A stretch of 64,000 bases of DNA. It comes from Verrucomicrobium spinosum DSM 4136 = JCM 18804 (GTDB lineage: Bacteria; Verrucomicrobiota; Verrucomicrobiia; Verrucomicrobiales; Verrucomicrobiaceae). The notes beneath the pieces were generated by a model. It was not told the DNA's origin and did not search any database. It saw nothing but the letters and a program-made list of their open reading frames with translations. Below, piece after piece: positions 6,161 to 50,275 of the stretch. Position 1 is the first letter of the stretch; each line of letters opens with the position of its first letter. The position numbers and the translations under genes were made by a program. Location of the stretch: NCBI RefSeq assembly GCF_000172155.1, contig NZ_ABIZ01000001.1, positions 1,178,001 to 1,242,000 on the forward strand, given 5' to 3'.

Positions 6161-6982
6161 TTACTTCCAGCGACGGCACTCGATATAGAACTCGCAGCTG
6201 GCACAGGCCATTCCCGGTGAAGGGATGAAGTCCTGTCTGGCAATGCCTTCCAGGTATGCCGCCAGTAGATGGAACAGCCGGGTTTGCTGGCTGTCGGTCA
6301 TCGGCGGCAATGCTGTGATGCAGAGCTTGGGGTTCTTGAGTTTGACCAGGTGATGCAGTTCCATGCCTTCTTCCCGGGTGTCTGTGGAATCCCGGTAGAG
6401 AATGGCATAGATGCTGGTCTGTACCTCGTGAGTGTGTGCCACCTTCTCTGGATTGGGTGTGGTGGAAGAGGTCTTGTAGTCGATGATCTTGCGTTGCTGC
6501 ACCAAATCGAGGATGCCAATCAACCTGGGTAAACCATGGTTGGCCAGATCGGCTTCGACTGGTACTTCGACAGCATCAGGCTTCTGGGCGTGTTCGAATC
6601 CAGACTGACGCAGGTAGAGTTCACAAAGACGCCAGGCGGTGAGCTTTTCGTCTTCTTCGTCTCCTTGCCAGTCGACGGGTTCTTCATTGTTCTGGAGATC
6701 CCACGCCTTGGAGAACTCATCATGGAGTCCTTTGAGGGTGAGGGGTGCTTCCATCCATCGAGCCTTGTGCCATGCTTTCAAGGTGGCGTGAACCACATTG
6801 CCAACATGGAGCGAGGCAGGTTTGGGTTTGGACAGCTTGAGGACGTAGCGATAGTAAAACTTCAACCGGCATTGCAGAAACAGCGTGAGCCGTGAGGCTG
6901 AAACTGTCTGCTGCAAGCCGGTGAGGATCTCTTTCTCGCTGCGCTCTACCTTGGAAGGTGGAGGAACAGCGAGTGTGGTCAT
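6161..6982 (-). CDS. RecB/Cas4-like PD-(D/E)XK nuclease with Fe-S cysteines
   Basis: A 273-residue protein. The nuclease core shows LIGILDLV followed by KIIDYKTSS (residues ~166-184), i.e. the D...D-x-K motifs of the RecB/AddB/Cas4 family. One Cys near the N-terminus (residue 38, in LQCRLKFYYRY) and three near the C-terminus (C260, C263, C269 in CASCEFYIEC) match the four-cysteine iron-sulfur staple of AddB and Cas4 nucleases. The enzyme would degrade or process DNA ends. No helicase domain and no CRISPR array are present, so a Cas4 role in adaptation is not supported. Its start overlaps the upstream gene's stop by 4 bp (ATGA), indicating an operon. Confidence 0.85.
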   Translation of the reverse strand: MTTLAVPPPSKVERSEKEILTGLQQTVSASRLTLFLQCRLKFYYRYVLKLSKPKPASLHVGNVVHATLKAWHKARWMEAPLTLKGLHDEFSKAWDLQNNEEPVDWQGDEEDEKLTAWRLCELYLRQSGFEHAQKPDAVEVPVEADLANHGLPRLIGILDLVQQRKIIDYKTSSTTPNPEKVAHTHEVQTSIYAILYRDSTDTREEGMELHHLVKLKNPKLCITALPPMTDSQQTRLFHLLAAYLEGIARQDFIPSPGMACASCEFYIECRRWK

Positions 6983-7494
6983 GCCGCTTGTTGTTGGGGT
7001 TTCTGCCAGCGCGACTGACGAGGTGTTCCCGCCATCGCCAGCATTTCCTCAATGAGCTGTGAAGCCTGCATCTTGTTGAGCTGCTTCACGCCGAGACCAT
7101 AGAGCCGTTGGGCAATGGCTTCGACTTGCTGCTTGTCGAGGTTGTTCTCGTTGGTGATGCGCAGGATGAACCCACGCTGACCATCAGTGCAGGCCCAACG
7201 GTCGTTGTGAACCTTGAGCTGCTGGCCGTTCTGGCTGTTCCCGTTGCGGTGGTAGCCATTACGGGGGCCAGATGAGGTTCCCTTCTGACCGTACTGCTTG
7301 GGATCAGGGACAAAGCCGACCTGTTGGATCTCCTGGTCGACCGACTGCTGGAGAAGCTGGTAGAGCTTCTGACATTCGGTTTCGACCTGGTTGAGGTCAG
7401 TGAGTTCGACTTCGACGGAAGCACTGAAGCTGTGGCTGCTGTATTGGGGTAGGCCAAGCTTTTTGCTGTAGTTGGCGGATAGTCTGACTGCCAT
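6979..7494 (-). CDS. Conserved hypothetical protein coupled to the RecB-like nuclease
   Basis: A 171-residue soluble protein beginning MAVRLSANYSKKLGLPQYSS. I recall similar openings (KKLGLPxYSSH) in uncharacterised proteins of Planctomycetes and Verrucomicrobia. The middle is low-complexity, rich in Gly, Asn and Gln (residues ~75-95); the C-terminal third is helical and ends in a Gln-rich tail. Translational coupling to the nuclease suggests they act together. A DNA- or ssDNA-handling role is only a guess from context. Confidence 0.65.
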   Translation of the reverse strand: MAVRLSANYSKKLGLPQYSSHSFSASVEVELTDLNQVETECQKLYQLLQQSVDQEIQQVGFVPDPKQYGQKGTSSGPRNGYHRNGNSQNGQQLKVHNDRWACTDGQRGFILRITNENNLDKQQVEAIAQRLYGLGVKQLNKMQASQLIEEMLAMAGTPRQSRWQKPQQQAA

Positions 7495-7587: not shown

Positions 7588-7800
7588 CTACGCAGCTTTC
7601 GCCGGCGGGATGTGGTACTGAGCCTCCTGTTCGCGGAGGGTTTCTGCAGTCTGCCATCCTGAGGAACCGGTGAGAGCCTGGCGCAGAAGCTGATCCGTGA
7701 GTTTGGTCATCGGAATGCCTCTGGTTTTGGCCTCATGGTAGAGGACGGAGACGAGAAACCGCGAGATGGGAGGGCTGTAATGACGGTGTTTTGCCTTCAT
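7588..7800 (-). CDS. Small RHH-like protein
   Basis: A 70-residue basic protein from an ATG at 7798-7800 (MKAKHRHYSPPISRF). The segment PISRFLVSVLYHEAKTRGIP followed by MTKLTDQLLRQAL has the strand-helix-helix look of a ribbon-helix-helix DNA-binding domain. A longer frame from 7914 exists but its extra residues are not protein-like. A small regulator at the head of a minus-strand cluster, with its own terminator, would fit autoregulation. Family membership is not certain. Confidence 0.5.
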   Translation of the reverse strand: MKAKHRHYSPPISRFLVSVLYHEAKTRGIPMTKLTDQLLRQALTGSSGWQTAETLREQEAQYHIPPAKAA

Positions 7801-8089
7801 GACGCCTGCCGGAGAGGATTTTTTGACCTGTTCAGCGGTGCTGGAGGCTAATCCTTTCGCGTTCAATGTATTATACCATATGTAGCCCGCATTTTCTTTG
7901 GCTAAATGGTGCAATCGACGAAAATGTCAGGCATTTGGTTGCGCCCGATAGCATTGCTGCATATACCAAGAGCCATGTGGTTGTGCCAAATTGACGGGGT
8001 TAAGTATTGAAGCGTTCAAGAGCCGAGCGGATGAGAAACGAATCCGTTGCGCCGATTCATTGTCTTAGTTTTCTAAAAACACTCGACCC

Positions 8090-11000
8090 ATGCAAGAGAA
8101 CTCGCTACCGCCCTTTAGAGCAAGGTTCATTGAGGCCGTTACTCTCGACGCCGTCCTGGGCGGGCTACCACTTGAACTGTTTAGGCCTGCACGCGCGAGC
8201 GATGGAGATCGCCATCAACTTGGCACAAGAACAATACTTCCGCGAAGGAGAGTTGCATTATCCTTTAGAAATCTCGGATTTGTGACTGCGGAGGGCTTGA
8301 ATGTCGTCGCTGGATTGAAGGAGCTTATCAGGAGCTCCGCAGGTGACTCCTTGATATCGTTTGAATTTGACTCTGACTCTGAACGGATGGCTGAAGTTTT
8401 TGGAGTTAAGCAGCTAAACGATCAACCTCCGATCGATGGGGTTCAGCCCCTTCGACACCTATCAGACAGTGCCTGGACTGCTGGGCCATTCTGTTGCAGG
8501 CTAAACGCAGAAAAAGATGTTATTGAGGCTGCGAGAGGCATTGCCGAAAGTGCGTCGCTGGTTGCCGACAATTGGTCGTCAAGTGAAATTGGCGTTCTCC
8601 ATGATGCGATCGAAAGGATTGTAATTGAGGCGCTGTATAACATATATGAGCATGCATATGAGCGAAAAATCCAAGAAAAACTATCTCTTGTGTCATTCTG
8701 CGTTCAGCCAGCCGATCGCTACATAAGTAAGAGGTCGTATTCAAGCTCAGAGTTAAGTTGGTTGCAGTTTCATGGCAAACGGATGGTGTTAGAGATCGCG
8801 GTTAGTGACCTTGGACAAGGGGTTGCAAAGACGTTGTGGCTTAACTATCACGATAAGCATCCAACTAAATTTGCTAAGCTTGTAAATGCTAAATCTGGAA
8901 CCAGGGAGTTTGAGTTGGCTCGAAGGGGGGTTCATGAGCAACTTTGCCTTTATGCATTTAATCATGAGTCGACAAGAAAAAATGTGGATGATTTCTTCGA
9001 TCCATATCATCAATTGAATTGGAGGGGGTTGTTTCGAGGTCGCAGGCATATAGCTGATCTAGGGGGGTGTGTTACACTTACTTCTGGAAGAGGGCGTGCC
9101 GGCTTTGCGACGAAGAGTGATGGTGAAAGTGGATTTGCATTCGCAATGCCTGGTGATAATGATCTTATCGGTACAACTCTAACGTTGCGAATTCCACTGC
9201 CTTTAGGTAGAAGAGCTTCTCCTATGCACGCTTTGCGGGACGTTGTCACGGAACGAGATGAAATGCGGCAAATCGAGCTGAAGTTGCTTCCGTTGAGTGG
9301 ATTGGTTGCTGGTCGTAAATTTGATGGGGATGGTGGAACTAGGATGGTGCCTCACGATCTCCATGGGGAGATGGTTGGCTTGGTGTTGCCGTTCAGGCGG
9401 GTAACCTCTGCGCATCATTTGAGTTTAGGTGCATCGAGCTTCACATCAGTTGAATTTCTGCAGTGTGTGAGGAAGTTGAATCCTAGGTTGGTTCCAATTG
9501 TAATGTTTGGATTCGTTAAGGACGCAATACTTAGGGTTCCTCTGGAGTCTAGTGGGGCGGCAGTTGGTGGTCCACGGATGCTTGCTATATGGGATTCTCA
9601 AACTCGCCATCTAATATGGAAGTTTGTTGGTGCTTTTGACCAGGAAACAGAGTCAATGCTCGATGCGTTGGAATCACGTGGAGAGTATGATATTCCCTCT
9701 GTCGTGCCCGACGTAGTTGTGGACTTGGCATATGAGTTGCAAGCAAATTATGCTCACGATATCGTCTTCAACGAGAGTAGCCGTCGAATCGCTATCAGGA
9801 GATTTTCTATGCGGATCTCAAAGAAATCTGAAGAAGCTGCATTTAAGATCGCATTTGATCAGTACTGGCCTCTTATCGAGCAAAGAGTCGTTGAGGATGG
9901 GCCCGTGTTGGTGCATACGGGAAGGAGAGTATCGCGATATTTGTGTATATTGTACCTTGTTGAGAGTTCGTGGTACTTCGGAGAGATCATGGGGGTGCGG
10001 CTCCGTGCATTAATTGACGGTGACTATGTTGTAACGGATGATTTTGGAAGTCTCTGCGTGGCTCAAACCCTTATGAGGAGCGAATCCGGACATCGAACTA
10101 AGCTTGGACTTGCAGAGAGCATGGACTGCCCTCTGGGGCAGCCTGTCACGATTTTTGCAGATGCCATATTTAGAGGTAATACTGTCACAGTATTGGCCGA
10201 GATTCTCAGGGCGCGGGGGTGCATCGTAAACAAGATTGTTGCATGCGTTGATCTCCGAGAAGATCGGGGCACCCTGATCCTGGGAGACATTCCGATTCAT
10301 GCACTTGTCAATGTGGATGCGTTCAGGACTGAGGAACTTCAACAAAGTGCTAATGGTGGCGCTGATGTGCAAATTGATCGTGTCACTCATGTTCCGATAC
10401 GGGGCGCATCTTCGCAGTTTGTGGCTATGGCATCTACCCAGATGGCGGAAGATCTTCTAAAAAGATCTGAGTCAATCATTGAACACGGCTTCAAAGAGCG
10501 TGGTGGCAGGTTGCACACAATTGCACTGCCGGTGGGGCGGCTATTAAAAAGTTTTCGTAATGAATGTGTTGATCTTATCGTTGACAAGATTGTGCGATTC
10601 TTGGCAGATTGTGCAGATTGTCCTGCTGACATAGTTTTCTTTTTTCGTGCGGAAAGTGAGATTGCGAATTGCATTGGTTCTCTACATGACAGACTTGTAA
10701 GTAAAGGTCACATCGGTATTGGTCGCACCTACAAGGTGGCTTTGCAGAGCGAGCATCAAGGGGCGACAACGCTTTTTACGCATTCAAAAATACCACTATT
10801 TAGAACTTGCGTTCCGGTTGATTCTGGTCAGTTGCTGTTCTTCAGCAATGAAACAACAGGTGTAAGGCCAAACGGGAAATACCTTGGAATTTATTTGGAT
10901 GATGCTGCGGTTAGCGGAAAAGCGCTTAGAAGCTTTTTGTACCAAGCTATGTGTGACAAGGAGTGTGTCCCGATTGGATTGCTGGGGGTCGTTCTGGTAA

Positions 11001-12724
11001 ATAGGCTTAGTCCTGTTGAGTTGCGGGCCTTTGAACTAAACAGGCGCTTGTGGTCGCCAAATTTGCAGGATGAAGTTGGTGTTCCATTTAGATTGGCGGA
11101 TGTATTTAGAATGCAAGTGCGGTCTAAGGAGGGGGGGAGCCCCAAAGACCATCCGATGATTAGAAGAGTGCTGGAGAGTGGTCCGATTCCAACGGCTGAG
11201 CTCAGGCAATACTTTCAAGCGATTCTAGAAAAACTGGACACTGAAAGGCCGGTGCGACATATATTTTACGTTGATAGAACAAAAGGGAAGAAAGCGGTAC
11301 TCTCTCTTAATGGAGCCAAACTCAGGCATTTGTTTGCATTGCATCAGCAGAACGAGGCGGTATTGCCTGACCTGTTGAGTTGCTGGAGAACTTTGGTTTC
11401 CGAATGCGATCCGTCTCTTCTCTTTGTGTTGGCGTTGGAACCTGACATGTTGGAAGAGGCTCCATTCAATGGAGTTTGCCGAAGAGATACAATTCGCCTT
11501 TGTGTGCATATTCTGACTGATACTCGTACTAGTGAGGAGGCTAAAAGTGATGCCCTGACCGTCTTGGCGTTCTATGAAAATGGATTTTTCGAATCGATAG
11601 GCGAAGTTGCGTCGACTATCTTCCGTGATGTGCCGCTGCGGCAGCAGTTTTTACTTTTTGTTCTAACATGGTTTAGTAGAACAATGAGTCAATACGACAA
11701 AATTATAGAAGTGTTGAGCAACGTTCGCGAACCAGATGCCGACGTAAAGTGGGCGTCGATTGCCAAAAGTCTGATATCTCACTCGCACAGATTCAGACAA
11801 CAGACTGCGGCCTTAAGATCAGAAGCGGACGCCGAGCATGCGCTGCGACTGCTACTGGGGCGAATGTCTCGACATTCGCTAGATGTGGAGGAGCACTGGG
11901 AGTCTTTGGGTAATCAGCTCTTTGCGTTGCGCCTAGGTTGGGATGATGTTGTCGACGATGATGTTCTTGCGGATGTGGTTCGTAAGTTGAGACTTGCTTG
12001 CTCACTTGTGGTTGATGCATTTTTGCCAGCCTTTGCTAGCCTTGCCTATTTGTATGAACTCAAAGGTGAGAACAGTATGGCATCCCGAATGCAACAGGCG
12101 CATGAAGTGTGTTTTCGCTGCGTGGGAGCAATCCGGCAGATGTTGAGTGTGGATGAAGCTATACTTGGTAGGAATGTTGTTGAGAATGTCGCAGAGCTAT
12201 TTGAGTCCATCAGAGATGAGAGTTGGCCGCAAGGCTGGTCTGCGACGGATGTGCTTAGTCGCGCCGACATCGGTGAGGATACCACTCCGCTGCTAAAGGG
12301 ATTGAGGGCATTCTATTCAGCACCTTGGGCGATGATGGAGAGAATGGCGGACCAATTGCGCCGCAAAAGCGGTTTGCCGCGAATGAAGGCTGCTATTACG
12401 GAGGAGCTAATTGTCTGCAAGGTTCCGTATTTGGATATGCACGAGATATTGAGGCCATTGCTGGACAATGTTGCTATTCATGGAGATATAGGAACACTCA
12501 CTGTAGTCAAATATGACGTGCCATCATGCTTGGTGATTGAGGTGTGCAATCGAATTGTGAGTCGAGATGTTGGCAATGGCGCAGGGTTGGTTCTTGTTAG
12601 ATCGAGAGCGCAAACTCACGATATATCAATAGAATCTGGGAGAGCGCAGATGCCGGGAGATTGGCGAGCGGTGTTGACGATTCGACATTTCTTTCGAGTG
12701 GATGCCATAAATGCAATTCATTGA
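8090..12724 (+). CDS. Giant STAS-like/GHKL ATPase/dual phosphoribosyltransferase-like protein
   Basis: A 1544-residue soluble protein. Residues ~62-115 resemble a STAS domain (LSFRNLGFVTAEGLNVVAGL). Residues ~150-365 form a GHKL ATPase: N-box ERIVIEALYNIYEHAYE (~171), G1 DLGQGV (~238), G2 RGRRHIADLGG (~315) and G3 GTTLTLRIPLP (~360). Two phosphoribosyltransferase-like PRPP loops follow: PVTIFADAIFRGNTV (~685) and YLGIYLDDAAVSGKALRSF (~930). The C-terminus (~1445-1535) looks like a second, degenerate GHKL unit (HEILRPLLDNVAIHG, then GNGAGLVLVRSRA). No histidine-kinase dimerisation box is visible. It lies 18 bp upstream of the receiver/kinase gene on the same strand. The combination suggests an ATP-gated enzyme or sensor in a conflict or stress system; the substrate is unknown. 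The first ~55 codons use many rare codons and may be misframed. Confidence 0.75.
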   Translation: MQENSLPPFRARFIEAVTLDAVLGGLPLELFRPARASDGDRHQLGTRTILPRRRVALSFRNLGFVTAEGLNVVAGLKELIRSSAGDSLISFEFDSDSERMAEVFGVKQLNDQPPIDGVQPLRHLSDSAWTAGPFCCRLNAEKDVIEAARGIAESASLVADNWSSSEIGVLHDAIERIVIEALYNIYEHAYERKIQEKLSLVSFCVQPADRYISKRSYSSSELSWLQFHGKRMVLEIAVSDLGQGVAKTLWLNYHDKHPTKFAKLVNAKSGTREFELARRGVHEQLCLYAFNHESTRKNVDDFFDPYHQLNWRGLFRGRRHIADLGGCVTLTSGRGRAGFATKSDGESGFAFAMPGDNDLIGTTLTLRIPLPLGRRASPMHALRDVVTERDEMRQIELKLLPLSGLVAGRKFDGDGGTRMVPHDLHGEMVGLVLPFRRVTSAHHLSLGASSFTSVEFLQCVRKLNPRLVPIVMFGFVKDAILRVPLESSGAAVGGPRMLAIWDSQTRHLIWKFVGAFDQETESMLDALESRGEYDIPSVVPDVVVDLAYELQANYAHDIVFNESSRRIAIRRFSMRISKKSEEAAFKIAFDQYWPLIEQRVVEDGPVLVHTGRRVSRYLCILYLVESSWYFGEIMGVRLRALIDGDYVVTDDFGSLCVAQTLMRSESGHRTKLGLAESMDCPLGQPVTIFADAIFRGNTVTVLAEILRARGCIVNKIVACVDLREDRGTLILGDIPIHALVNVDAFRTEELQQSANGGADVQIDRVTHVPIRGASSQFVAMASTQMAEDLLKRSESIIEHGFKERGGRLHTIALPVGRLLKSFRNECVDLIVDKIVRFLADCADCPADIVFFFRAESEIANCIGSLHDRLVSKGHIGIGRTYKVALQSEHQGATTLFTHSKIPLFRTCVPVDSGQLLFFSNETTGVRPNGKYLGIYLDDAAVSGKALRSFLYQAMCDKECVPIGLLGVVLVNRLSPVELRAFELNRRLWSPNLQDEVGVPFRLADVFRMQVRSKEGGSPKDHPMIRRVLESGPIPTAELRQYFQAILEKLDTERPVRHIFYVDRTKGKKAVLSLNGAKLRHLFALHQQNEAVLPDLLSCWRTLVSECDPSLLFVLALEPDMLEEAPFNGVCRRDTIRLCVHILTDTRTSEEAKSDALTVLAFYENGFFESIGEVASTIFRDVPLRQQFLLFVLTWFSRTMSQYDKIIEVLSNVREPDADVKWASIAKSLISHSHRFRQQTAALRSEADAEHALRLLLGRMSRHSLDVEEHWESLGNQLFALRLGWDDVVDDDVLADVVRKLRLACSLVVDAFLPAFASLAYLYELKGENSMASRMQQAHEVCFRCVGAIRQMLSVDEAILGRNVVENVAELFESIRDESWPQGWSATDVLSRADIGEDTTPLLKGLRAFYSAPWAMMERMADQLRRKSGLPRMKAAITEELIVCKVPYLDMHEILRPLLDNVAIHGDIGTLTVVKYDVPSCLVIEVCNRIVSRDVGNGAGLVLVRSRAQTHDISIESGRAQMPGDWRAVLTIRHFFRVDAINAIH

Positions 12725-12742
12725 AAAAACTAATGACATCAT

Positions 12743-14344
12743 ATGAAATTCATAGTCATAGAGAACCAGCGTGGCGATTTAGATAGCCTTATCTTGGTGT
12801 TGAAGCATGCTTTTCCGTCGGCGGAGATCGTTACCAAGCCGGGGGAGGTGGTGAATCTTTGGAGTTCCGCTGTTAACTGCGTGAGCAAAGAGCTTGAAAG
12901 CAAGGAGTTGATAGTATTCACCGATATCGCCCTTGACGACAACAGTAGCGCGGATGCGCAAGCCGGGCTTGAGCAGATTAGACGCGTCTTTGCGATCAAG
13001 CCTGATGCTACTTGGATCGCCTTTACATCTTTCACGGAAGTTGTGGAGTCAGAAGAGGCAGGGGAGATTTTTCACGCGGTGTTAAGCAAGCAAAAGTTCA
13101 ACAAACCGCGAAAAATTCACGAACGGGCGCAATATGTCGCCAAGATTGTGCAATCTGGCATAGGCAAGAGTACCGGGTCTTCAAGTTGCGTTTTTAGCGC
13201 CAACGATTCTTTGGGTATGCGCACATTTTTGGCGGTTTTCTCGCGCTTTGCTCTCGAGGAGATCATATTGGCCGAATGCCAGGGATGGACTGGAGTCGTA
13301 GTGTCGGCTTTGTCGGCTGGATACTCTGGAGCAAGTCTACTTGCTCTCCGGGGGAGTCTCAGCGGCGTGATGAGGCGCATTGTTGTAAAGGTGGCAGCGA
13401 GGGCAGACACGATTGAGCGAGAAACCAAAATTCTGACGGAGTTTTTCGGTGAAGCTCAAGAATTTTCTCGCCGTTGTGCTTCCGCGCAGCCTTTGAAACC
13501 TCTTCCAAGGGGGCTTGGATACTATTCCATTCAAGAAGCTGTTGCAGGTGAAACGCTTTTTAGTGTGATTAACGATGATCAATCGGTCAAGAGTTCCGCC
13601 GTGCGTTCAATTTTGAAAGCAATTGTGGATGTTGAACTTGTGCAATCTGGTGCCGCAATAAATCTATTAGACGAGAAAGAGCATCGTAAACGTAGAATTG
13701 GATTGCTTCCCGTCGATATTGATAGGATTAAGAAGTCATGCTCAGAATTAAGGGGAATGGCTTCTTGCCTGAAGCACGATGGTGGATGGCCGTCGACGGA
13801 CGTCGATCCGGAATTGTTATTTAGGAATATTGAAGTTACAGCGTTGAATTGGAACGAGGCATTGGATAATTTGCCGCCGCTATTGTGGGTGCTTCAGCAT
13901 GGCGACCTGAATCCCCATAACGTTATCGTGGGAGAGTTGGGCCAGCCCACTTTCATTGATTTGGCTAGGTTGGACCGATGGCCTGTCGGCTATGACCTTT
14001 GCCGACTTTCAATGCAGCTTAAACTGAGACTTGTGGATCGAGCTGAAAGTTCTGAGTGGGTGCGGAATAATCTCGGAGTCTGGACGCGTGAGCGTCTTTT
14101 TCAAGTTGGTGCAGAAGGTGAATGGAAATCTATGCTTTGTCCGGCAGCTAGCTTTTTTGAGCATGCTATGACAAATTGGATTCGAAACGAGCCCAACGCA
14201 GAATCTATTATGCTGGGGCTGCGTATCAGTGCGCTTATGGATCTACTGAGAATCATATCGTATGCAGACTTGTCTCCATTTAAGCGGCTTTGGGCTGCGA
14301 TTGACTGCGGCTTTTTGATTGAAGAATTGGAACAAATGCAGTGA
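12743..14344 (+). CDS. Receiver-like domain fused to aminoglycoside-phosphotransferase-like kinase
   Basis: A 533-residue protein. The first ~130 residues have the alternating strand/helix layout of a response-regulator receiver domain: MKFIVIENQRGDLDSL, LIVFTDIALDD with a candidate phospho-acceptor Asp near residue 60, and ATWIAFTSF at the position of the conserved Thr/Ser. The C-terminal ~350 residues contain the APH/choline-kinase catalytic loop LQHGDLNPHNVIV (near residue 385) and FIDLARLDRWPVGYDL (near 405), where the metal-binding Asp is present. It could phosphorylate a small molecule or protein. It follows the giant GHKL/PRTase gene by 18 bp with no terminator between, so the two probably form one functional unit. 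No Shine-Dalgarno sequence is seen. Confidence 0.75.
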   Translation: MKFIVIENQRGDLDSLILVLKHAFPSAEIVTKPGEVVNLWSSAVNCVSKELESKELIVFTDIALDDNSSADAQAGLEQIRRVFAIKPDATWIAFTSFTEVVESEEAGEIFHAVLSKQKFNKPRKIHERAQYVAKIVQSGIGKSTGSSSCVFSANDSLGMRTFLAVFSRFALEEIILAECQGWTGVVVSALSAGYSGASLLALRGSLSGVMRRIVVKVAARADTIERETKILTEFFGEAQEFSRRCASAQPLKPLPRGLGYYSIQEAVAGETLFSVINDDQSVKSSAVRSILKAIVDVELVQSGAAINLLDEKEHRKRRIGLLPVDIDRIKKSCSELRGMASCLKHDGGWPSTDVDPELLFRNIEVTALNWNEALDNLPPLLWVLQHGDLNPHNVIVGELGQPTFIDLARLDRWPVGYDLCRLSMQLKLRLVDRAESSEWVRNNLGVWTRERLFQVGAEGEWKSMLCPAASFFEHAMTNWIRNEPNAESIMLGLRISALMDLLRIISYADLSPFKRLWAAIDCGFLIEELEQMQ

Positions 14345-14383: not shown

Positions 14384-14640
14384 GGCATCGCAAATGGGGG
14401 CTTTCCGAGCGAGCGCAGTATGTGCCTTTAGGGGAGCTCCATCGTGCAATCCTCAGCGCATTTGTTGATTCCTCCACAGTTTTTTGTATTCGAGGAAGAT
14501 TACTTGCGTCCACAGCCTTGACTGAGCATTGGAGGGGCTACTGATGAAGTTGTGGGCGTGCAAAAACTAGTATGCAGCTTTTGCAGACAGGTTGGCCAAA
14601 AAAGGGTTTGGCTGAAAGCCGCCCCCTTGTCACTAAATCC

Positions 14641-15405
14641 TCACCGGCTGGAGCATTGCAGAAGCAGTTCTCCAAGCGGGCGGGGGATGTACCAGCGCGA
14701 TGCCTCTAGTGCCCTCCATTCCACATCCCTGAAACCATTGCGTTTAATCGGGTCAATGACGCACGAATCCACACGCAGAAGCTCAGGAGTAGACTTTGGT
14801 GCTGTGTTTGCATGCTTCGCCTGGTACGTCTGCCAGTATTTTCCTACCAAGAAAGACGCTTTGTGATCCACCCACAGCCTCGACAGTGCCTTGGAGCGAC
14901 TGCTGATGAAGTTGTAGGTGTGCCAGCCAGTTTCATTGTAGGGCGCATCAACCCAGCTGCGTTCAGGCGTCTCGGCGACGAGTTGAACGCACACGACTTG
15001 ATCTGCTCGATCTGTGACCAGGTAGAGCTTGTTGTAGTGGCCTTCAAAGGTTCCGTCGAATGCGTAGTGGAAGAAGGAATCCCTCGGGAAACCTCCTGCG
15101 GCTACGGCATTTTTAGGAGCCGATTTGGTCAGGTTCAGGGCCTTTTTGGCATCTTCGAGTGGCATCAGGTAGGTGACGCTTTCGAAGATGACCTGAGCTT
15201 TGCTGCCTGTGAAGGTGGGCTTGGGTTGAAAGAACGGTGACAGCAACGTCGCCAGGTCTTTCGCTGAGGCGCTGCCACCTTGTAAGGGGGTAGACCAGTT
15301 GTTTGCGAGTACGATGGTGCCTTCTCCCGGTTTTGCTTGAGGCGCTTGGCCCGAAGCGATGCCGGTGAAGGTGAATGCGATGATGAGAGGGATGATTTTG
15401 GTCAT
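14641..15405 (-). CDS. Secreted protein, unknown function
   Basis: A 254-residue protein starting MTKIIPLIIAFTFTGIASGQ, a signal peptide with a likely cleavage after ASG or GQA. The mature part is mixed alpha/beta with no motif I recognise. It includes GGFPRDSFFHYAFDGTFEGH, a KLYLVTD strand and VCVQLVAETPERSW. An alternative start two codons upstream (15411) is possible. It stands alone between the two-gene module and a small membrane-protein gene, both separated by short gaps. Confidence 0.6.
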   Translation of the reverse strand: MTKIIPLIIAFTFTGIASGQAPQAKPGEGTIVLANNWSTPLQGGSASAKDLATLLSPFFQPKPTFTGSKAQVIFESVTYLMPLEDAKKALNLTKSAPKNAVAAGGFPRDSFFHYAFDGTFEGHYNKLYLVTDRADQVVCVQLVAETPERSWVDAPYNETGWHTYNFISSRSKALSRLWVDHKASFLVGKYWQTYQAKHANTAPKSTPELLRVDSCVIDPIKRNGFRDVEWRALEASRWYIPRPLGELLLQCSSR

Positions 15406-15488
15406 GATCATGGGTTAAGAGTTGGTTTTCTAGCACCCTGCTATACCAGCTCCTGTGCAGCCTTCGGGGAGGGGGGCTGCTATCAATC

Positions 15489-16523: not shown

Positions 16524-17687
16524 CTACTCGCTAACATTGTAGGGTGGTGTAATCTTCCAGAGCTTGGTGGTAGGAACATTCTCGGCGGCCTTGCGAATGA
16601 CGAAGCCGGAGCCAGGGTAAAACACGACTTCGTTGTTCTTTATGGCAGTAAATCCTCCGGCGGTTTGCCTCCAGCCGGGGCCACCGTATAATGAGCCAGT
16701 GTAGTAGTAGAAGGTTTTTGAAGAAGATCTGTTCTTGATTGCAAAACTGTTATCGTAGTACAACAATCTATCACCGTCGATTCCGTTTATGGTAGTGGAG
16801 GGTTTCAGCGCACCACTCTGGAAAAGCTGTGAATCCCACAAGCTAAGTGGTATTGGGATGTCAAGAGCGATCGCAATATCTTGCGCGAGATTGGATTGAA
16901 GTGTCGCCAGCGTGAATGCTTTCTTTCCAAGTGGCACATTGCCTGAGGACACTAGAGAGACTGTCGGTGCGGCTTCCTGACGTATGATTACATAACAATC
17001 TGGAATCACGACTTGGTCATCAAACTTTACCCCAAAACCGCCTCCAATCTTTCTCCAACCTGGACCATTGAATGAGGTGCCGTCGTAGTAAAAAAACATC
17101 GCGCTAGAGGCGATGTTAACTCCAGGAGATGTCAGATCTGGAAAAAAGATACAGGTGCAACTCCCAACGCCACCAATAGAGGTCGAGGTGGTGATTCCCT
17201 GTTGCCCTGGAAACAGCGTTGAAAGCGTCCAATAAGGGATCACCTTGAAGGTGTTGCCCGGTTGAACCCCTTCCGGATCGTCGATTACATCTCCGTTGAG
17301 ATCAATGGTGATGGTGGCGGTGTTGTTGCCGGAGGCTTCTGTATTAGCGGTGATGGTGTAGTACATCCCGGCGCGTGAGCCAGAGGTGAAAGAGATGTAG
17401 TAGGTATTTGGCTGAGTTCCTTGAGAGTACACAAACTCTGAGGTGGCCCAAGATGGAATTCCCTCAACGACGATTGTGCAGCCGGAAACCGACTCCACTG
17501 TGCCTATCGCTTTTGTTTGGCGATGAAAAGGCGCACTGTAGTAGGTATCAGACTCCCCAAGGGCGGTGATTTTGTTGAACCCCACGGGATCTGAAAAAGA
17601 TTGGGCCTGCAGGTTCAATGGCAGTGCGACCATGGCCAAAAAAGAAAAGAGGCAAACTACGCCAGGGTATGAGGAGGAGGGATGCAT
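16524..17687 (-). CDS. TIGR02597-like secreted paralog 1
   Basis: A 387-residue exported protein: signal peptide (VCLFSFLAMVALPLNLQAQ), then the family opening SFSDPVGFNKITALGESD. A central signature FKVIPYWTLSTLFPGQQGI and two copies of a YYYTGSxxGGPGWRxxxGGF-like unit (around residues 205 and 345) suggest an internal duplication. It ends with GSGFVIRKAAENVPTTKLW. The start at 17687 (MHPSSSYPG) gives a proper signal peptide; a longer frame to 17747 overlaps nothing useful. It is the last gene of the array in transcription order and is closest to paralog 4. From memory this matches the Verrucomicrobium paralog family TIGR02597; no function is known. Confidence 0.8.
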   Translation of the reverse strand: MHPSSSYPGVVCLFSFLAMVALPLNLQAQSFSDPVGFNKITALGESDTYYSAPFHRQTKAIGTVESVSGCTIVVEGIPSWATSEFVYSQGTQPNTYYISFTSGSRAGMYYTITANTEASGNNTATITIDLNGDVIDDPEGVQPGNTFKVIPYWTLSTLFPGQQGITTSTSIGGVGSCTCIFFPDLTSPGVNIASSAMFFYYDGTSFNGPGWRKIGGGFGVKFDDQVVIPDCYVIIRQEAAPTVSLVSSGNVPLGKKAFTLATLQSNLAQDIAIALDIPIPLSLWDSQLFQSGALKPSTTINGIDGDRLLYYDNSFAIKNRSSSKTFYYYTGSLYGGPGWRQTAGGFTAIKNNEVVFYPGSGFVIRKAAENVPTTKLWKITPPYNVSE

Positions 17688-17722
17688 GGCTTTAGGGGAG
17701 TAACTTTGATGAATACCTCGGA

Positions 17723-18841
17723 TCAGTAGGGATGCGGCACTGGCCATACCTGAGCATGTATGGTGCCACCGGCTTTGCGAACGATGGCTCCGCGGCCAGG
17801 GAGAAGGTATTCAGTGTGGTCGACTGGACCATCCATGTTGCCAAGGTTGAACCACCCAGTCCCAAGCTCTGGATCTGTGGAGTAGAAATAGATGTGAGAA
17901 GGTTGGATGTTGTGGCCGACTTGGTCTGACTTAAAAAGCATCAGTAGATCCTTGGGGGAGTCGATATCTGATGTCGGTGTGAACGCTCCGGACTGTATGA
18001 GATTGCTATCCTGGAGGGAAACGGGAATGGGGAATGGGTTTCCAACAATATTATCCTGAGGTGTATTTGCTGCCAGCGTTGCCAGCGTGGTCGCACAAGT
18101 TCGAATCGGAACTCTCCCGGTGAGTACCAGGCTTTTCTGGGAACCCATGTTTCTAACGTTCACAAAAACATCTGGAGCAATCGGTAGATCTCCGGTGCTC
18201 GCGAACGTGCCATTGTTGTGCCATCCTACAGGCAAAAGAGAACTTGTGTTGTAGATATGAACGCCGGCACCGGCCTGATTTACGCCGATTTAATCTTGCG
18301 AGTAGAACACGATTCGAGCCTTCGGCGCATCGAGGTCGGAGGTCGCTGTGAGTCCGCCACCATTGGGGAATAATGTGTTCAGCGTCCAAAAAGGAATGAC
18401 TTCGATGTCATCCCCAACGGCCAGACCTCTGGCTTGAAGAGATTGAGGGCCGTCCGGTTCAACCGTGAGCTGCGATAGTGGCGGTGCGCCAGTAGAGTCT
18501 GTGTTTGCCACGATGGAATACCACGTTCCGTTCAGCGCCCCGGAGTCTGAAGACGCTTTGTGAACCCGAATGAAATAGTGATTGGGCTGGACACCCGTGG
18601 AGTACACCAACTCGTTTTCCTCAAGCGAGGCAGAAATGACCAACGAATTGCCAACCACCGAAACAACCTTCGCTTGCAATATTGGATTTCGCTGGAGCGG
18701 GAAGCTCAGCGCCAAGTCACTGCTGGCATTTGCATTGACTTTAATGAATCCAACCGGTTCAGAGATGTGCTGAGCAGACGCTGGATGATGGGCTGAAATC
18801 AGAATCAGGCCTATGAGTATCGTCAAGGATGGAGTTTTCAT
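17723..18841 (-). pseudogene. TIGR02597-like paralog 2 interrupted by an in-frame TAA
   Basis: The 5' part (18841-18290) encodes a signal peptide and the first ~183 residues up to KARIVFYSQD, where a TAA occurs. The same frame continues without shift through IGVNQAGAGVHIYNTSSLLP and another ~165 residues to HAQVWPVPHPY at 17723. Joined, the length (372 codons) equals that of intact paralogs and the order of family motifs is complete. A single nonsense substitution therefore explains the break. The product would be a truncated exported protein unless the codon is read through. Confidence 0.8.
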
Positions 18842-18895
18842 CGGTGGATGCAGAGGCAGCTTGTGATCAGATGTGACTCGCCTTTGGTAGTGAAT

Positions 18896-19939
18896 TCACT
18901 CACTGTCCTCCCCGGGCAGTTTGGAGATCAAGAGAACATTCGCAGCTCCGCCTTTGCGCTCCAGGATGAAGCCTGTAGTGAGTATTGCGCCACCTTTGTC
19001 CAGATTCCCTGTGTTGCTCGACTTCCAGCCTGCAGTCGTGAAAGGTGGCGCAGGAAGGGCGTAGTAATATTTGTCATAGTTACCGCTGCCATTGGGCATC
19101 CAGACGATATCGGCGGTGGATGCGTTGCCGTGGGTCAGATAATCTCCCAGACCCGAATCTTGGAGGGATACTCCAAAAGGGAAAACACGATTGAGGAAGT
19201 TCATGCCGGTGGTAATTCCAAGAATTGCGGGGCCGGTCTTGACGCTCCCAGCGGACTTTAGGTTCAATGATGTGCTCCCTCGCCTTTCGACAAAAATGGC
19301 CTCGGTGTGATAGATGGGAGTGTTCGAAGCATCAGCATTGCCTGCCGCAGTGTTCTTCCACCCGGCTGTAGTGAATGGAGGCGCGGTGACAGCGTAGTAG
19401 ACTTTAATGAATCCTCCGGACGTGGGGATCCAGATTATGTCTGCGGTCGACACATTCCCGGGAAGCAGGCCGACCTCATTGCTGCTAGGGTCAGTGTTCC
19501 GGGCGATGTTGTTGTCGATGCCGAAAACAGTGGAAACGGTATGTGCTTCTCTGATCTGATAGGTGGCCTGATTGGTGGCGAAACCGGCCAGATCTTCTTC
19601 TGTGGTAATCGTTGAATTGGTGAATGAAGCAATCCGGCTTGAAGCCCCTGAACCTGGGCCATTCGAAATCTCAACCCAAAGGTTTGAATGTCCCGCGAGC
19701 TTGGCAGTGAAATTTGCGTCGTTGTCAGTGAGAACTGTGGTGGCGATGTTGTCGATTGCTCCGGAGGCCAATAAAGGGCGGAGGAAGTTGACTCCCAGCA
19801 AGTTGAGTTGCCCAGGATGGATGGCGATTTCCTGAAAGCCAACGGCTTTTGAAGTGTCAGGTGCTGCCCCAAGCTGCAAGGGCCAACAAGCGCTTGCCAG
19901 AATGGTTGCTGCGATGACTCTGAACGGGAGAGTGCTCAT
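18896..19939 (-). CDS. TIGR02597-like secreted paralog 3 (divergent)
   Basis: A 347-residue protein with a signal peptide (RVIAATILASACWPLQLGAA) and SKAVGFQEIAIHPGQLNLLG in place of the usual PVGF opening. It has two clear internal repeats: APPFTTAGWKNTAAGNAD and APPFTTAGWKSSNTGNLD, each preceded by a STADI(V/I)W unit. The start at 19939 (MSTLPFRV) is chosen for the signal peptide; the open frame upstream overlaps paralog 4. It is the most divergent member of the array but shares its size, export signal and two-repeat plan. Confidence 0.75.
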   Translation of the reverse strand: MSTLPFRVIAATILASACWPLQLGAAPDTSKAVGFQEIAIHPGQLNLLGVNFLRPLLASGAIDNIATTVLTDNDANFTAKLAGHSNLWVEISNGPGSGASSRIASFTNSTITTEEDLAGFATNQATYQIREAHTVSTVFGIDNNIARNTDPSSNEVGLLPGNVSTADIIWIPTSGGFIKVYYAVTAPPFTTAGWKNTAAGNADASNTPIYHTEAIFVERRGSTSLNLKSAGSVKTGPAILGITTGMNFLNRVFPFGVSLQDSGLGDYLTHGNASTADIVWMPNGSGNYDKYYYALPAPPFTTAGWKSSNTGNLDKGGAILTTGFILERKGGAANVLLISKLPGEDSE

Positions 19940-19967
19940 GTGAGGCTTTGAAGAAGGGGGTCTGCTC

Positions 19968-21125
19968 TCAATGTTGCCCCGGTGAATAGGGGGGGATGAC
20001 TGTCCAAAATTTGGTCGTTGGGACTGCCTCTGCTTGCTTGCGAATGATGAATCCTGAACTGGGCTGGAACATCTCAACATCATTCTGGATAGCGTCCGGA
20101 TCTCCGCCCAACAGTCGCCAACCGGGCCCTCCATGGGCTGATCCTTCATAGTAAAAAAAGCGAAATGCTGCAGTCTTATTTATGGAAGCTACACCGTTGT
20201 CGTAAAAGGAGATTTTGTCACCTGTGGTTCCATCGATGTCTCCGGATCCCGTAAATGCTCCGCTTTGATAGAGCCGGGAATTCCAAAGCGTCATGGCAAC
20301 GGGAACGTCCAGTGCCATGTAGACGTCTTGGGGCGTGTTGGCCTGAAGGGTGCCTATGGGGTACCTTCGAACACCCAGCGGCACCGTTCCATATGTGAAA
20401 ACGGTAGTAGTCGGAATGGTGTTGTCCTGACGAAAGACCAGATGACTATCAACGAGGAACACAGTGTCATTGTTGATCGCAGGCCCTCCCCCAATCAAGC
20501 GCCAGTTGGGGCCGAATCCACCTGCGCCAGTGTAGTAAAAGTACATTGCAACCGGTGAAAAATTGATTCCTGGCAATGAGACGTTCTGAAAGAGCAGTTT
20601 GGTCGCAGCACCTGAACCTCCAGCACTCGTCGTGCCACTGATTCCCTGCTGTCCTGGGAACAGGCTCGAAAGCGTCCAGTAGGGGATCACCTTGAAGGTG
20701 TCGCCCGGTTGAACCCCCTCCGGATCGTCGATTACATCTCCGCTGAGATCAATGGTGATAGTAGCGGTGTTGTTGCCGACGGCAGCGGTGTTGGCGGTGA
20801 CGGTGTAGTACGTCCCGGCGCGTGACCCAGAGGTGAAGGAGACGTAGTAGGTGTTGGGCTGAGTTCCTTGAGCATAAAGGAACTGACTGGAGGCCCAGAG
20901 CGGCTCCCCTTGCACAGTCAGAACCGATCCAGAGACCGAATGTACTGCGCACTGAAACAAGACTGGACGGTGAAAAGGCACGCTGAACCGGGTGTCAGAG
21001 GATCCTAGCGCCGTCACACGGTTGAATCCCACAGGTTCGCTGAAAACCTGGGCTTCTACTTTGATCGAACACAACAGGGTGAGAACGCTAAGGGCAACGG
21101 CACCAGACAATGTCTTTGCAGTCAT
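19968..21125 (-). CDS. TIGR02597-like secreted paralog 4
   Basis: A 385-residue protein with signal peptide (AVALSVLTLLCSIKVEAQ), the opening VFSEPVGFNRVTALGSSD, the central FKVIPYWTLSSLFPGQQGI and two FYY-G-GPGWRLLGG repeats, ending SSGFIIRKQAEAVPTTKFW. DNA around 20640-20870 is very similar to paralog 1 (about 17210-17430), so these two are recent relatives separated by two more divergent genes. Gaps to its neighbours are 28 and 21 bp, consistent with an operon. Confidence 0.8.
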   Translation of the reverse strand: MTAKTLSGAVALSVLTLLCSIKVEAQVFSEPVGFNRVTALGSSDTRFSVPFHRPVLFQCAVHSVSGSVLTVQGEPLWASSQFLYAQGTQPNTYYVSFTSGSRAGTYYTVTANTAAVGNNTATITIDLSGDVIDDPEGVQPGDTFKVIPYWTLSSLFPGQQGISGTTSAGGSGAATKLLFQNVSLPGINFSPVAMYFYYTGAGGFGPNWRLIGGGPAINNDTVFLVDSHLVFRQDNTIPTTTVFTYGTVPLGVRRYPIGTLQANTPQDVYMALDVPVAMTLWNSRLYQSGAFTGSGDIDGTTGDKISFYDNGVASINKTAAFRFFYYEGSAHGGPGWRLLGGDPDAIQNDVEMFQPSSGFIIRKQAEAVPTTKFWTVIPPYSPGQH

Positions 21126-21146
21126 AGAAGGGGGAAGCCATTGAGG

Positions 21147-22226
21147 TTAATTCTGGCCAGGAAGATCGTTTCTCCATAAAATGGAGGAGGGCGATGCAAT
21201 AGGGTATTTGCGGATGATAAACCCTGAGCCGGGCGGTATGAGCACGTGGTTTGAAACAGGGGAGCCCGAACTGGCGCTTCTCCAGTCGCTGCCCACTTTG
21301 TAATAGATGAAAGAGGGAGGCTTATTTAGCTGGGGTATGAGATTGTCATACACATACAGTTCATCTCTTCTGTGGGGAAGCAAAATGCTGCTGCTGCTTT
21401 GAAATGTGGATTCGTCAAGACCGAGTTTGGAGAGGGGCATTGGTACCGGTCGTCCGTGGGTGACGAAGTTGTCTTGGCGATCAGTGGTCAATACTGCAAG
21501 AGGGGAGGTCAGCGACCCCAGCTCCACATGACCGGTAGTGATGAGCTGAGTGTCAGTCGTGATGCTTGCGTGCCCGTGTTTGATGATAAAGTAGGTGTCC
21601 GGCCAGAGGATGGTGGAACCGGCTTGGGGGAAGCCTGACGCCGAGCGGCGCCATTCTGTGGTGCCGTAGAGATAGTAAATTGCGGCAGGCGGCAGGTTGT
21701 ATCCCGGTGAGGTGTTGTCAGGTAGCAATAGTTCCGTTCTTCGCTGGGCGAGGAGGTTTCCAGTGGAAGGGATGATGGTGGACTGCGTGGAAGGCGGGAA
21801 CAGTGAATCAAGCGTCCAGAACTTGCAGATCTTGAATCGAGTGCCCTCGGAGAGGCTGCTACCGTCCATTCCAGCAAGGTCGATGGTTAGTTGACCGTTG
21901 GAATTGCCCGTGATTTGGAAGTAGGTCCCGTTCATGGGACCACTCCTAATTCTGATGAAAGAGTTGTCTCTGAACTGGTCAGTTGCCCAAGAGACACCTT
22001 CTACTGGGGTCAGTGTCGCAGTTGAGCCAGTGGAGGTCAACGCACTCAGTGTGCCTTCAAACTGTGGTTGCCGATCGAACGGAACTGAGCAGATTGTATC
22101 GGAACCGGCCAAACACGTGGCTCTATTGAATCCTACCGGAGCGCTCAGCTCCTGGGCAGGGCAATTGATCGAAACAGTGGTCAACGCAGCCACTGCCAAC
22201 ATGGAAATGAGGGTGGGGTTCGTCAT
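21147..22226 (-). CDS. TIGR02597-like secreted paralog 5 (subtype B)
   Basis: A 359-residue protein with signal peptide (AVAALTTVSINCPAQ) and ELSAPVGFNRATCLAGSDTI. It carries the subtype signature FKICKFWTLDSLFPPSTQS and two repeats ending in a WRRSASGFP or WRSASSGSP turn. It is most similar to paralog 7, and the 5-6 and 7-8 pairs look like duplicated two-gene units. The C-terminus GSGFIIRKYPIASPSSILW matches the family. Confidence 0.8.
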   Translation of the reverse strand: MTNPTLISMLAVAALTTVSINCPAQELSAPVGFNRATCLAGSDTICSVPFDRQPQFEGTLSALTSTGSTATLTPVEGVSWATDQFRDNSFIRIRSGPMNGTYFQITGNSNGQLTIDLAGMDGSSLSEGTRFKICKFWTLDSLFPPSTQSTIIPSTGNLLAQRRTELLLPDNTSPGYNLPPAAIYYLYGTTEWRRSASGFPQAGSTILWPDTYFIIKHGHASITTDTQLITTGHVELGSLTSPLAVLTTDRQDNFVTHGRPVPMPLSKLGLDESTFQSSSSILLPHRRDELYVYDNLIPQLNKPPSFIYYKVGSDWRSASSGSPVSNHVLIPPGSGFIIRKYPIASPSSILWRNDLPGQN

Positions 22227-22383
22227 GTCTAAGCGGTGTTGGAATGCATTTCCCTAGCTGGCGGAAACTAACTAAGCTAGCCGCTTATCCATCCCAAAGT
22301 GGATACGGTGAGATTGGGGGGCTTCGTGAGGCGAGCAAGAAACTAAGAGGTCCGGCAATTCTAAGATCTTTCCCAAGAAAAAA

Positions 22384-23517
22384 CTAGGGCACAGGGTAAG
22401 GCAAATCAAGCGTCCACGGATCCAGTTGTGCGATCCCGTCAGGTCTGCGGATCACAAATGCCTCGCCGGGTTCTAGGGTGAGGGTGCTGCCGACGGCCCC
22501 GCCAAACAGATTTCCTATATCATACCATCCCTCGGGCAGGATGCCCATCGAGCCATCGTAGTACATATAGCTCCTCGTTGGAGCAAGGTCGATGCCTGTG
22601 GGAGGGCTGGGAAATTTCAGAAGTAAATCGCCCAAAGGGGCGAAGAGGTTGGGGCTGGGTTTGAAAATGGCGTTTTCAACGAGGCTTAGTTGTTCGACGG
22701 TGAGAGGGATAGGAAAGGGCTGAATGACATGGTTGTCATTCGTAGTGGTGGCCAGACGAAGTAAGTTGGTCGTAATCTTGGTGGTAGGGACATCACCTGA
22801 GATGTAGTGCGTTTGCATAAAGGAGGACTGGTTACGCATGATCAGGTGGTCATCGGGAGAAAGGGGTGAATTGTCGAATGTTCCCAGGGACGTGTCTGCA
22901 ACATCGTACCACCCAGCGTCCAAAAGCCCACTTGAGCCGTCGTGGTAGATGTATACCTCTGTTGGGATCAAGTCGTTCCCTGTCAAACCAGGGGCGATCA
23001 TCATGGCAAAGGTCCCTGACGGAGCAAAGGGATCCGGGCTGGTGACGATTCCAGCTTGATCTGGGAATATTGTGTTTAGCGTCCAATGGGGGATGATGAG
23101 GATTTCGTCAATGCCGGTAGTGGCAGCCAAGCCCCGTTCCGAAAGATTTAGTGTCGTGGCGGGAGACACTGTAAGAGTGTCCGATGTATGGCCAGTGATC
23201 GAGTACCAAGCGCCAGCCGCAGTTCCCGAAGCGACTCTGACATAAAAGTGGTCAAGTTGGCTGGTTCCGTTGTAGATCAGTTGACCGGCTGTGAAGTTGG
23301 CAGTGGCAAGGGTGAGGACGTTGCCGCTCACATTAGTGACGTTGCCTCGATAAACGGACGGACGGTGAACGGGTGCGGAGATTCGCATGTCCGTGTTTGC
23401 GGGCGATTCAAATTTTACAAATCCGACCGGATTGCTGAAGTCCTGGCCAAATAGAGCGGGACCTTCTACCCAGGCCGAAAGACAGATCGTTGCGGTGAGG
23501 AATAGGATTGGCTTCAT
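22384..23517 (-). CDS. TIGR02597-like secreted paralog 6 (subtype A)
   Basis: A 377-residue protein: signal peptide (LFLTATICLSAWVEGPALFG), then DFSNPVGFVKFESPANTDMR, PHWTLNTIFPDQAGIVTS, and two repeats with YIYHDGSSGLLDAGWYDV and YMYYDGSMGILPEGWYDI. Bases 23011-23415 appear identical to 25304-25708 in paralog 8, whereas both flanks differ. A 157-bp gap separates it from paralog 5, the largest gap in the array. Confidence 0.8.
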   Translation of the reverse strand: MKPILFLTATICLSAWVEGPALFGQDFSNPVGFVKFESPANTDMRISAPVHRPSVYRGNVTNVSGNVLTLATANFTAGQLIYNGTSQLDHFYVRVASGTAAGAWYSITGHTSDTLTVSPATTLNLSERGLAATTGIDEILIIPHWTLNTIFPDQAGIVTSPDPFAPSGTFAMMIAPGLTGNDLIPTEVYIYHDGSSGLLDAGWYDVADTSLGTFDNSPLSPDDHLIMRNQSSFMQTHYISGDVPTTKITTNLLRLATTTNDNHVIQPFPIPLTVEQLSLVENAIFKPSPNLFAPLGDLLLKFPSPPTGIDLAPTRSYMYYDGSMGILPEGWYDIGNLFGGAVGSTLTLEPGEAFVIRRPDGIAQLDPWTLDLPYPVP

Positions 23518-23588
23518 TATCGCTGTCTTTTTTTGTGATTTCTATGTGTGAAGCCAAACGGCCAGGCTTCTCATCGGGCTGGTATTGG

Positions 23589-25825: not shown

Positions 25826-25834
25826 TCTGAGGGG

Positions 25835-27103: not shown

Positions 27104-27112
27104 TGTGACGAG

Positions 27113-28195: not shown

Positions 28196-28610
28196 GGTTG
28201 CTCTATGAAAGGAAAGCCCGCAGGTTGGCCGGTTGGATAGGGTGATGGTGTGGCTGGAGACGCAGCATAGTCTCAAAAAACCTTGTATGCAATAGTCACT
28301 TGCGAACTCGATAAAAAGAGTGACTGCAGTAGTGTTGACTTCGCACCTATTAGAATTGAGAGTGCCGCAAAAGGAAGGCTGGCTGGGTCCAGCAGTATTG
28401 CTGGCTTCTTCAATTTGCAATATTCCTGTTGCATATACTGATCCCTTCACCATAATCCAACCCATTCATTGATCGGATTGGTTCGAATTGCCGCAGTTTT
28501 TGCCTGCGTGGGAGATTCAGAGTGGCTAGGTGTTATTGAGCTGCGTTAGAGAAGTTTGATTTCGATAGCCCAAAGGTGCGCTTGGAGACTCTAGTCTAGA
28601 TAAGAAAAGT
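28196..28610. other. Divergent intergenic region
   Basis: This 415-bp gap lies between the start of the paralog array (minus strand) and the start of the 28611 gene (plus strand), so promoters for both should be here. I see no convincing -35/-10 pair, hairpin or small gene. Confidence 0.5.
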
Positions 28611-38504: not shown

Positions 38505-38507
38505 ATT

Positions 38508-50265: not shown

Positions 50266-50275
50266 GGTTAGATGT

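Follow-up and report, generated by a model that had tools for sequence, protein, structure and literature searches.

What could two adjacent genes do that together encode GHKL-type ATPase motifs, phosphoribosyltransferase (PRTase)-like domains, a receiver-like domain and an APH-type kinase? Such a pair, here called gene 1 and gene 2, is found in a stretch of 64,000 nucleotides of Verrucomicrobium spinosum DSM 4136 = JCM 18804 (contig NZ_ABIZ01000001.1, positions 1,178,001 to 1,242,000 of the forward strand; this whole stretch is referred to as the window, and positions are given within it). The answer we favour, tentatively and with somewhat less than even confidence, is that the pair is a two-gene PRTase module gated by phospho-signalling, most probably serving in stress or conflict (defence).

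The gene pair and its distribution

The two genes are arranged as follows.

8090-12724, plus strand: gene 1, 1544 amino acids (aa), ATG start, intact open frame
12743-14344, plus strand: gene 2, 533 aa, ATG start, intact, encoding a receiver-APH kinase

An initial annotation, made from the letters alone, had reported a 1544-residue protein and a second gene 18 bp later, and both open reading frames (ORFs) were recovered at the stated coordinates. The genome is a single contig of 8.22 Mb. The closest flanking ORFs of at least 150 aa (6979-7494 and 14641-15411) are both on the minus strand, so gene 1 and gene 2 seem to stand alone; smaller ORFs near the pair are found at 7588-7914 (minus strand) and 14552-14866 (plus strand). 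Promoter and terminator scans gave nothing better than shuffled sequences did. The module has a GC content of 0.479 (third-position GC is 0.45 for gene 1 and 0.494 for gene 2), compared with 0.515 for positions 1-47982 of the window and 0.613 for positions 48070-64000, which bears out the earlier assignment of the locus to accessory DNA. A tRNA-Leu gene (47983-48069) is located at the edge between the low-GC and high-GC parts, as at an island boundary, and no exact copy of at least 14 bases that could be its attachment repeat was found in the window.

Gene 1 and gene 2 form a real conserved pair. A full-length relative of gene 1 (1535 aa, 27% identity) was found in the same phylum, on contig CAIYGI010000179.1 (L007), where a full-length relative of gene 2 (552 aa, 27% identity) starts 8 bp after it; this locus is referred to below as the homologue. 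A third member, from the same family as V. spinosum, is on a contig of 3276 bp that holds the C-terminal 570 aa of gene 1 (40% identity) and, after a gap of 2 bp, gene 2 (42% identity). The genome-neighbourhood check suggested in the initial annotation thus found gene 2 directly after gene 1 in all three members (gaps of 18, 8 and 2 bp). Of 387 genomes sampled from the phylum, two had a gene 1 match, and those two were also the ones that the gene 2 profile matched (E <= 1e-8); the samples for the two genes were of equal size and listed the same genomes, with at most three candidates scored per genome.

In everything searched, the family proved very rare. Whole or truncated members occurred in one out of four genomes of the genus, two out of 68 of the family, two out of 386 of the order, one out of 384 of the class and two out of 387 of the phylum; around genome G495 they were found in one out of 17 genomes of the order and one out of 345 of the class (the taxon samples share genomes, and the central genome is part of every count). 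No match was found by tblastn for gene 1 against plasmids (at two thresholds) and phages, for gene 2 against plasmids, or for the two genes of the homologue against plasmids, and scans of viral contigs yielded no family member. When genome contigs were scanned with two short peptide patterns, one out of 130 candidate stretches was a member, namely the known homologue. A match in genome G322 (E 3.1e-4) was rejected as a member, being a sequence without a convincing gene.

Predicted domains of the two proteins

Gene 1 and gene 2 can be divided into the following parts, all on the plus strand.

8090-12724, plus strand: gene 1 as a whole, with the predicted architecture (STAS-like)-GHKL-middle-PRTase-PRTase-linking region-GHKL
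8090-8524, plus strand: putative STAS-like N-terminal domain (FRNL..TAEGL), residues 1-145 of gene 1, assigned by motif resemblance only
8525-9205, plus strand: GHKL ATPase 1 of the HATPase_c_2 (RsbW/SpoIIAB) type, residues 146-372, assigned by profiles and motifs
9206-9724, plus strand: middle domain, residues 373-545, 25.5% identical in the homologue, without a match in the family libraries
9887-10369, plus strand: PRTase-fold domain 1, residues ~600-760, assigned by hhalign with controls and by fold search of a low-confidence model
10157-10183, plus strand: phosphoribosyl pyrophosphate (PRPP) loop 1, residues 690-698, ADAIFRGNT (VDAIYKGET in the homologue), assigned by motif and profile position
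10478-11269, plus strand: PRTase-fold domain 2, residues 797-1060, assigned by profile and by fold search of a low-confidence model
10898-10924, plus strand: PRPP loop 2, residues 937-945, DDAAVSGKA (DDAAVTGKS in the homologue), canonical
11270-12409, plus strand: linking region, residues 1061-1440, probably helical
12410-12694, plus strand: GHKL-like domain 2, residues 1441-1535, with a HATPase profile match at 1448-1524
12743-13117, plus strand: receiver domain, residues 1-125 of gene 2, assigned by profile, with D61, T95 and K116 invariant in all three members
13298-14341, plus strand: APH-family kinase domain, residues 186-533, assigned by Pfam APH
13898-13921, plus strand: kinase catalytic loop HGDLNPHN, residues 386-393, assigned by motif

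A profile was built from six PRTases of the same genome and aligned to gene 1 by hhalign together with 24 shuffled controls. Its two best matches sit on the two PRPP-loop-like motifs noted in the initial annotation (residues 683-744 with a score of 25.9 and residues 933-978 with a score of 22.2, compared with at most 19.6 for the controls), so both loops were matched as claimed; of the two, loop 1 is altered and loop 2 alone is canonical. As far as can be read from the sequences, the two PRTase domains are therefore unequal: the consensus of loop 2, LDDAAV[ST]GK[AS], is canonical in both sequences that cover it, and that of loop 1, [AV]DAI[FY][RK]G[NE]T (two sequences), has A or V in place of the first acidic residue and R or K in place of the phosphate-binding Thr. 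When the six PRTases were aligned to gene 1 singly, five fell on PRPP loop 1 and two (L018 and L019) clearly beat their eight shuffles each; L017 scores the same as its best shuffle, L014 and L020 score lower than theirs, and L015 falls elsewhere.

Structure prediction, the other check proposed at the outset, also came out mostly on the side of PRTase folds, with models of low confidence made by AlphaFold from two-sequence input (residues 541-1085 and 797-1062). Residues 70-218 of the first model (about 610-758 of gene 1) match PRTases: 46 out of 50 rows of the VIA fold search are named PRTase or PRTase-fold (the remaining four are two Isw1 rows, which match elsewhere in the model, and two whose names say little), and so are 14 of the first 20 rows found by Foldseek. 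For PRTase 2, 44 out of 50 VIA rows are PRTases if two ShosT rows and a Thermus entry, not so titled, are included. The best VIA matches are the orotate PRTase 4rv4 for PRTase 1 (Z 8.4, root-mean-square deviation 3.4, 107 residues aligned) and 8zvc, ShosT with PRPP, for PRTase 2 (Z 7.3, root-mean-square deviation 3.9, 160 residues aligned; tied with HPRTs); according to VIA's own note a Z under 8 may reflect a common arrangement and is weak alone, so the weight of these matches comes from their agreement with the independent profile result. A viral-structure search with the PRTase 1 model was uninformative. Among solved structures, a sequence search at E <= 1 found none for gene 1 or gene 2 alone, and a profile search gave one irrelevant match for gene 1 and six weak matches for gene 2, five of which are kinases.

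The N-terminal GHKL assignment is based on motifs and profiles. The initial annotation had counted four GHKL motifs here; checked as three, they were located as the N box (EALxN, 180-184), the G1 box (D240) and the lid/G2 (STRK...RGL, 294-314), and N184, D240, G242 and the STRK...RGL lid are kept in both full-length sequences, with the motif order of the GHKL superfamily. HATPase_c_2 is the top Pfam match of gene 1 (E 0.21 at 157-244) and also of its full-length homologue (E 0.039 at 160-248), below cut-off in both; no Pfam match of gene 1 is above cut-off. A HATPase profile, built from 25 of the 79 HATPase domains found in the same genome and aligned to gene 1 by hhalign with 12 column-shuffled controls, has its three best matches at residues 1448-1524 (score 36.8), 230-248 (33.1) and 313-333 (22.0), compared with 17.0 for the best control; the two N-terminal matches are short (19 and 21 columns). 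The first of the three supports the second GHKL-like end that had been proposed for gene 1, except that the DxGxG box is lost there. Its score is far above the control maximum, yet the N-box Asn and G2 are gone in one out of three members, and this C-terminal part would be a degenerate GHKL domain. The two-sequence profile of gene 1 also matches a receiver-phosphatase-HATPase protein (domains named by eye) in genome G743 near its C-terminus (E 1.4e-4); this protein was rejected as a family member.

The remaining parts of gene 1 are less distinctive. Residues 1-145 are 30.1% identical between the two sequences covering them and have no match in Pfam; by motif we take them to resemble STAS domains, putatively, and the residue that would align with the phosphoserine of SpoIIAA appears to be Ala. 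In the linking region, H1262-S1263 are invariant in all three members.

Gene 2 was read at the start as a receiver-like domain fused to an APH-type kinase, and both halves of this reading are supported. Pfam APH (PF01636) matches residues 212-423 above cut-off (E 5.2e-9), and K216, E227, HGDLNPxN (with D388 and N393) and D406 are invariant in all three members. A receiver profile of 14 sequences aligns to residues 1-117 with a score of 30.0 (at most 19.9 in 24 controls) and puts D61, T95 and K116 in register; a smaller profile of four sequences did no better than its 12 controls, the Pfam receiver model has no match in gene 2, and the acidic pair, EN or DN, has just one acidic residue. TCAD9 matches residues 385-436 only, with 31.1 bits against a cut-off of 40, so gene 2 falls short of membership; since TCAD9 has three such matches below cut-off in the same genome, its signal reflects APH-like kinases generally.

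Proposed function and its alternatives

Under the favoured reading of a phospho-signalling-gated PRTase module, gene 1 would be a large scaffold-enzyme in which the STAS-like and RsbW-type GHKL domains at the N-terminus and the degenerate GHKL domain at the C-terminus flank a tandem PRTase. PRTase 2, which keeps its full PRPP-binding loop, is likely to be the catalytic half and may spend PRPP on a base, a nucleotide or a macromolecule; PRTase 1 would be the partner half, with a probably structural or substrate-binding role. Binding or hydrolysis of ATP by the GHKL head could open or close the PRTase site, and it is plausible, as the initial annotation had it, that a phosphoribosyl reaction is gated in this ATP-driven way. 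The APH kinase might be switched by its receiver, through phosphorylation of D61 or binding of a ligand there, and would phosphorylate either the PRTase product or gene 1. That PRPP loop 2 and the catalytic residues of the kinase are kept despite an overall identity of 27% appears to count for this reading. We also consider possible, with less confidence, a novel kind of nucleotide-based immune or stress system, in which a GHKL-gated tandem PRTase (one active half and one pseudo-half) makes or consumes a PRPP-derived signal and is coupled to a receiver-controlled kinase, so that a single conserved operon would link signalling of the two-component type with PRPP chemistry.

A defence role is suggested by the contexts of the homologue and of the pair itself. 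Downstream of the homologue are genes for a type ISP restriction enzyme (PF18135, E 2.8e-46) and RhuM (E 1.1e-106; both in L007, 16589-21478), and upstream is one for a deaminase-like protein whose C-terminus resembles a helix-turn-helix (L007, 8263-8856). The window holds the following candidate genes, in agreement with the earlier remark that this accessory DNA holds several defence genes.

6161-6982, minus strand: PD-(D/E)XK nuclease (PF12705, E 2.4e-30), also matched weakly by Cas4 and DruK of PADLOC, 1.1 kb upstream of the pair
34130-35998, plus strand: NACHT ATPase gene, by library match, ~20-25 kb downstream of the module
36921-39377, plus strand: PtuA/PDC-M01A (E 1.8e-184) and PDC-M01B (E 2.1e-87), candidate defence genes ~20-25 kb downstream of the module

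Positions 34130-39377 (plus strand) are a tight run of four genes, for the NACHT ATPase, an exo/endonuclease-phosphatase family protein, PtuA/PDC-M01A and PDC-M01B; adjacent genes overlap or are 3 bp apart, so the run may form a single, extended operon for Septu-like defence. Elsewhere in the window, about ten similar-looking predicted secreted proteins are encoded at 16524-28465 (minus strand); for the eight that were scanned Pfam gave nothing at E <= 0.01, and we take the proteins to resemble a Verrucomicrobia-specific family of the TIGR02597 type. A 674-aa protein with a C-terminal DUF6973 (E 1.4e-11) is encoded first in a short plus-strand run (28611-30635).

A number of observations weigh against the favoured module. 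Three members are known, and the third is cut at both contig ends, its neighbourhood being unseen. The hhalign probabilities are modest for the GHKL matches (38.7, 20.1 and 1.1%), only 19% for the receiver and only 1.9 and 0.7% for the PRTase matches, so the GHKL and PRTase case rests on the controls, on the position of the matches on the motifs and on conservation. PF00156 (Pribosyltran) has no match in gene 1 by Pfam at E <= 10, and gene 1 is not among its seven matches in the same genome. The mean predicted local distance difference test scores of the models are 40.1 (541-1085) and 48.0 (797-1062), Foldseek found nothing at E <= 0.001 with the PRTase 1 model, its rows for PRTase 2 are mixed with unrelated proteins after the first three, and just one best Z (8.4, for PRTase 1) is above 8. 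The second Gly of the G1 box of GHKL 1 is lost in the homologue, and the G1 Asp of GHKL 2 is missing in all three members, where an invariant Asn (N1487) takes its position. No DHp (HisKA) or phosphotransfer domain was matched in gene 1 by Pfam, so a relay from GHKL to receiver is only possible. In PADLOC, gene 1 has no match at E <= 1 and gene 2 has a single one (PD-T4-6, E 0.053, 44 residues).

Some of the same matches would fit a regulator that senses nucleotides rather than an enzyme. In such a regulator, PRTase folds that bind PRPP or nucleotides allosterically, as in PyrR, PurR and GfcR, would control the GHKL domain and, through it, the receiver-kinase, with metabolic or stress regulation as the output. 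The first three Foldseek rows for PRTase 2 are indeed PyrR (E 4.0e-4, 8.6e-4 and 3.9e-3), PurR is among the PRTase 1 matches of both Foldseek and VIA, and in NCBIfam GfcR alone matches gene 1 (688-742, E 0.19), falling far short of its cut-off and not matching the homologue. The altered PRPP loop 1 points the same way, as do the GHKL and receiver domains, which we take to be typical of regulators. We regard this explanation as a strong rival, the main one, yet as less likely than the favoured reading: PRPP loop 2 is conserved and canonical throughout, the longest VIA alignment is to ShosT, the homologue adjoins a restriction enzyme, and the rare, patchy and low-GC occurrence of the pair (one out of four genomes in the genus, two out of 68 in the family) is unlike that of a housekeeping regulator.

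Still less likely, in our view, is a short biosynthetic pathway, in which gene 1 makes a nucleotide-like compound that the APH kinase phosphorylates into a second messenger or antimetabolite, while the GHKL and receiver domains tune the flux. PRTases and APH proteins are typical small-molecule enzymes, and here they are adjacent in all three members; however, the APH kinase could equally target a protein, and among the scanned neighbours none was recognised in both flanked loci as a further pathway gene. A precedent would be the Ter systems, whose PRTases and phosphoesterases are proposed to make a nucleotide signal (PMC7824862). The idea that the motifs are coincidental in an unrelated large protein draws on the low-confidence models, the low hhalign probabilities and the absence of a family model at cut-off for gene 1, but it is highly improbable given that the profile matches beat all 12 and all 24 controls, fall on the predicted motifs, and that these motifs are conserved at 27% identity.

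Should the favoured reading of a gated PRTase module be true, the pair would show how a PRTase effector comes under phospho-signal control. PRPP loop 2 and the Asp of the kinase are its two diagnostic active sites.

Comparison with known systems

No paper describing this combination of domains, or this pair, was found in the open-access literature (preprints excluded), and no family model of it in the libraries searched, in line with the initial annotation, which knew of no described system with this set. RsbW and SpoIIAB are anti-sigma kinases with STAS partners; gene 1 is similar to them in having a HATPase_c_2-type GHKL domain adjoining a putative STAS-like domain, but this domain is embedded in a protein of 1544 aa. 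Detocs consists of a histidine kinase and two response regulators. The pair shares with such two-component defence systems a histidine-kinase-type ATPase and a receiver domain; gene 1, however, has no DHp match, and PRTases and an APH kinase are present here.

Among PRTase-containing systems, the DprA-PRTase pair protects against phage with the PRTase as the proposed effector, and PRTases are also proposed effectors in retron systems, with a mode of action called unknown there (PMC9122126). The likeness to ShosTA/DprA-PRTase is in the PRPP-binding PRTase-type fold, as seen in ShosT with PRPP, which VIA ranks first for PRTase 2; their partner, however, is DprA-like, whereas the pair has a doubled PRTase inside a GHKL protein together with a receiver-kinase. 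No DprA was found among the scanned neighbours at two of the three loci, which sets the pair apart from ShosTA. Ter modules join PRTases with phosphoesterases around a proposed nucleotide signal in conflict (PMC7824862), and likewise place PRTases in a conflict setting; the Ter partner protein was not found among the scanned neighbours of the pair.

On the kinase side, the pair resembles the MoxR-vWA/ternary conflict systems, whose effectors include APH-type kinase and receiver domains (PMC7159879 and PMC8195603); gene 2 shares both domains and has the TCAD9 match below cut-off. The 2020 paper on ternary systems reports that histidine kinase domains were not found among vWA-associated effectors, and a word search of both texts found no PRTase or GHKL. 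MoxR and vWA genes were absent among the scanned neighbours at two of the three loci, which places the pair outside the MoxR-vWA ternary systems. In the legends of the DefensePredictor study, PRTase is an abbreviation used for validated systems, whereas HATPase and REC are used for predicted ones (PMC13092281), so an overlap with the pair is possible. Compared with all of these, the pair is, as far as we searched, undescribed as a set, and consists of ordinary folds in a new arrangement.

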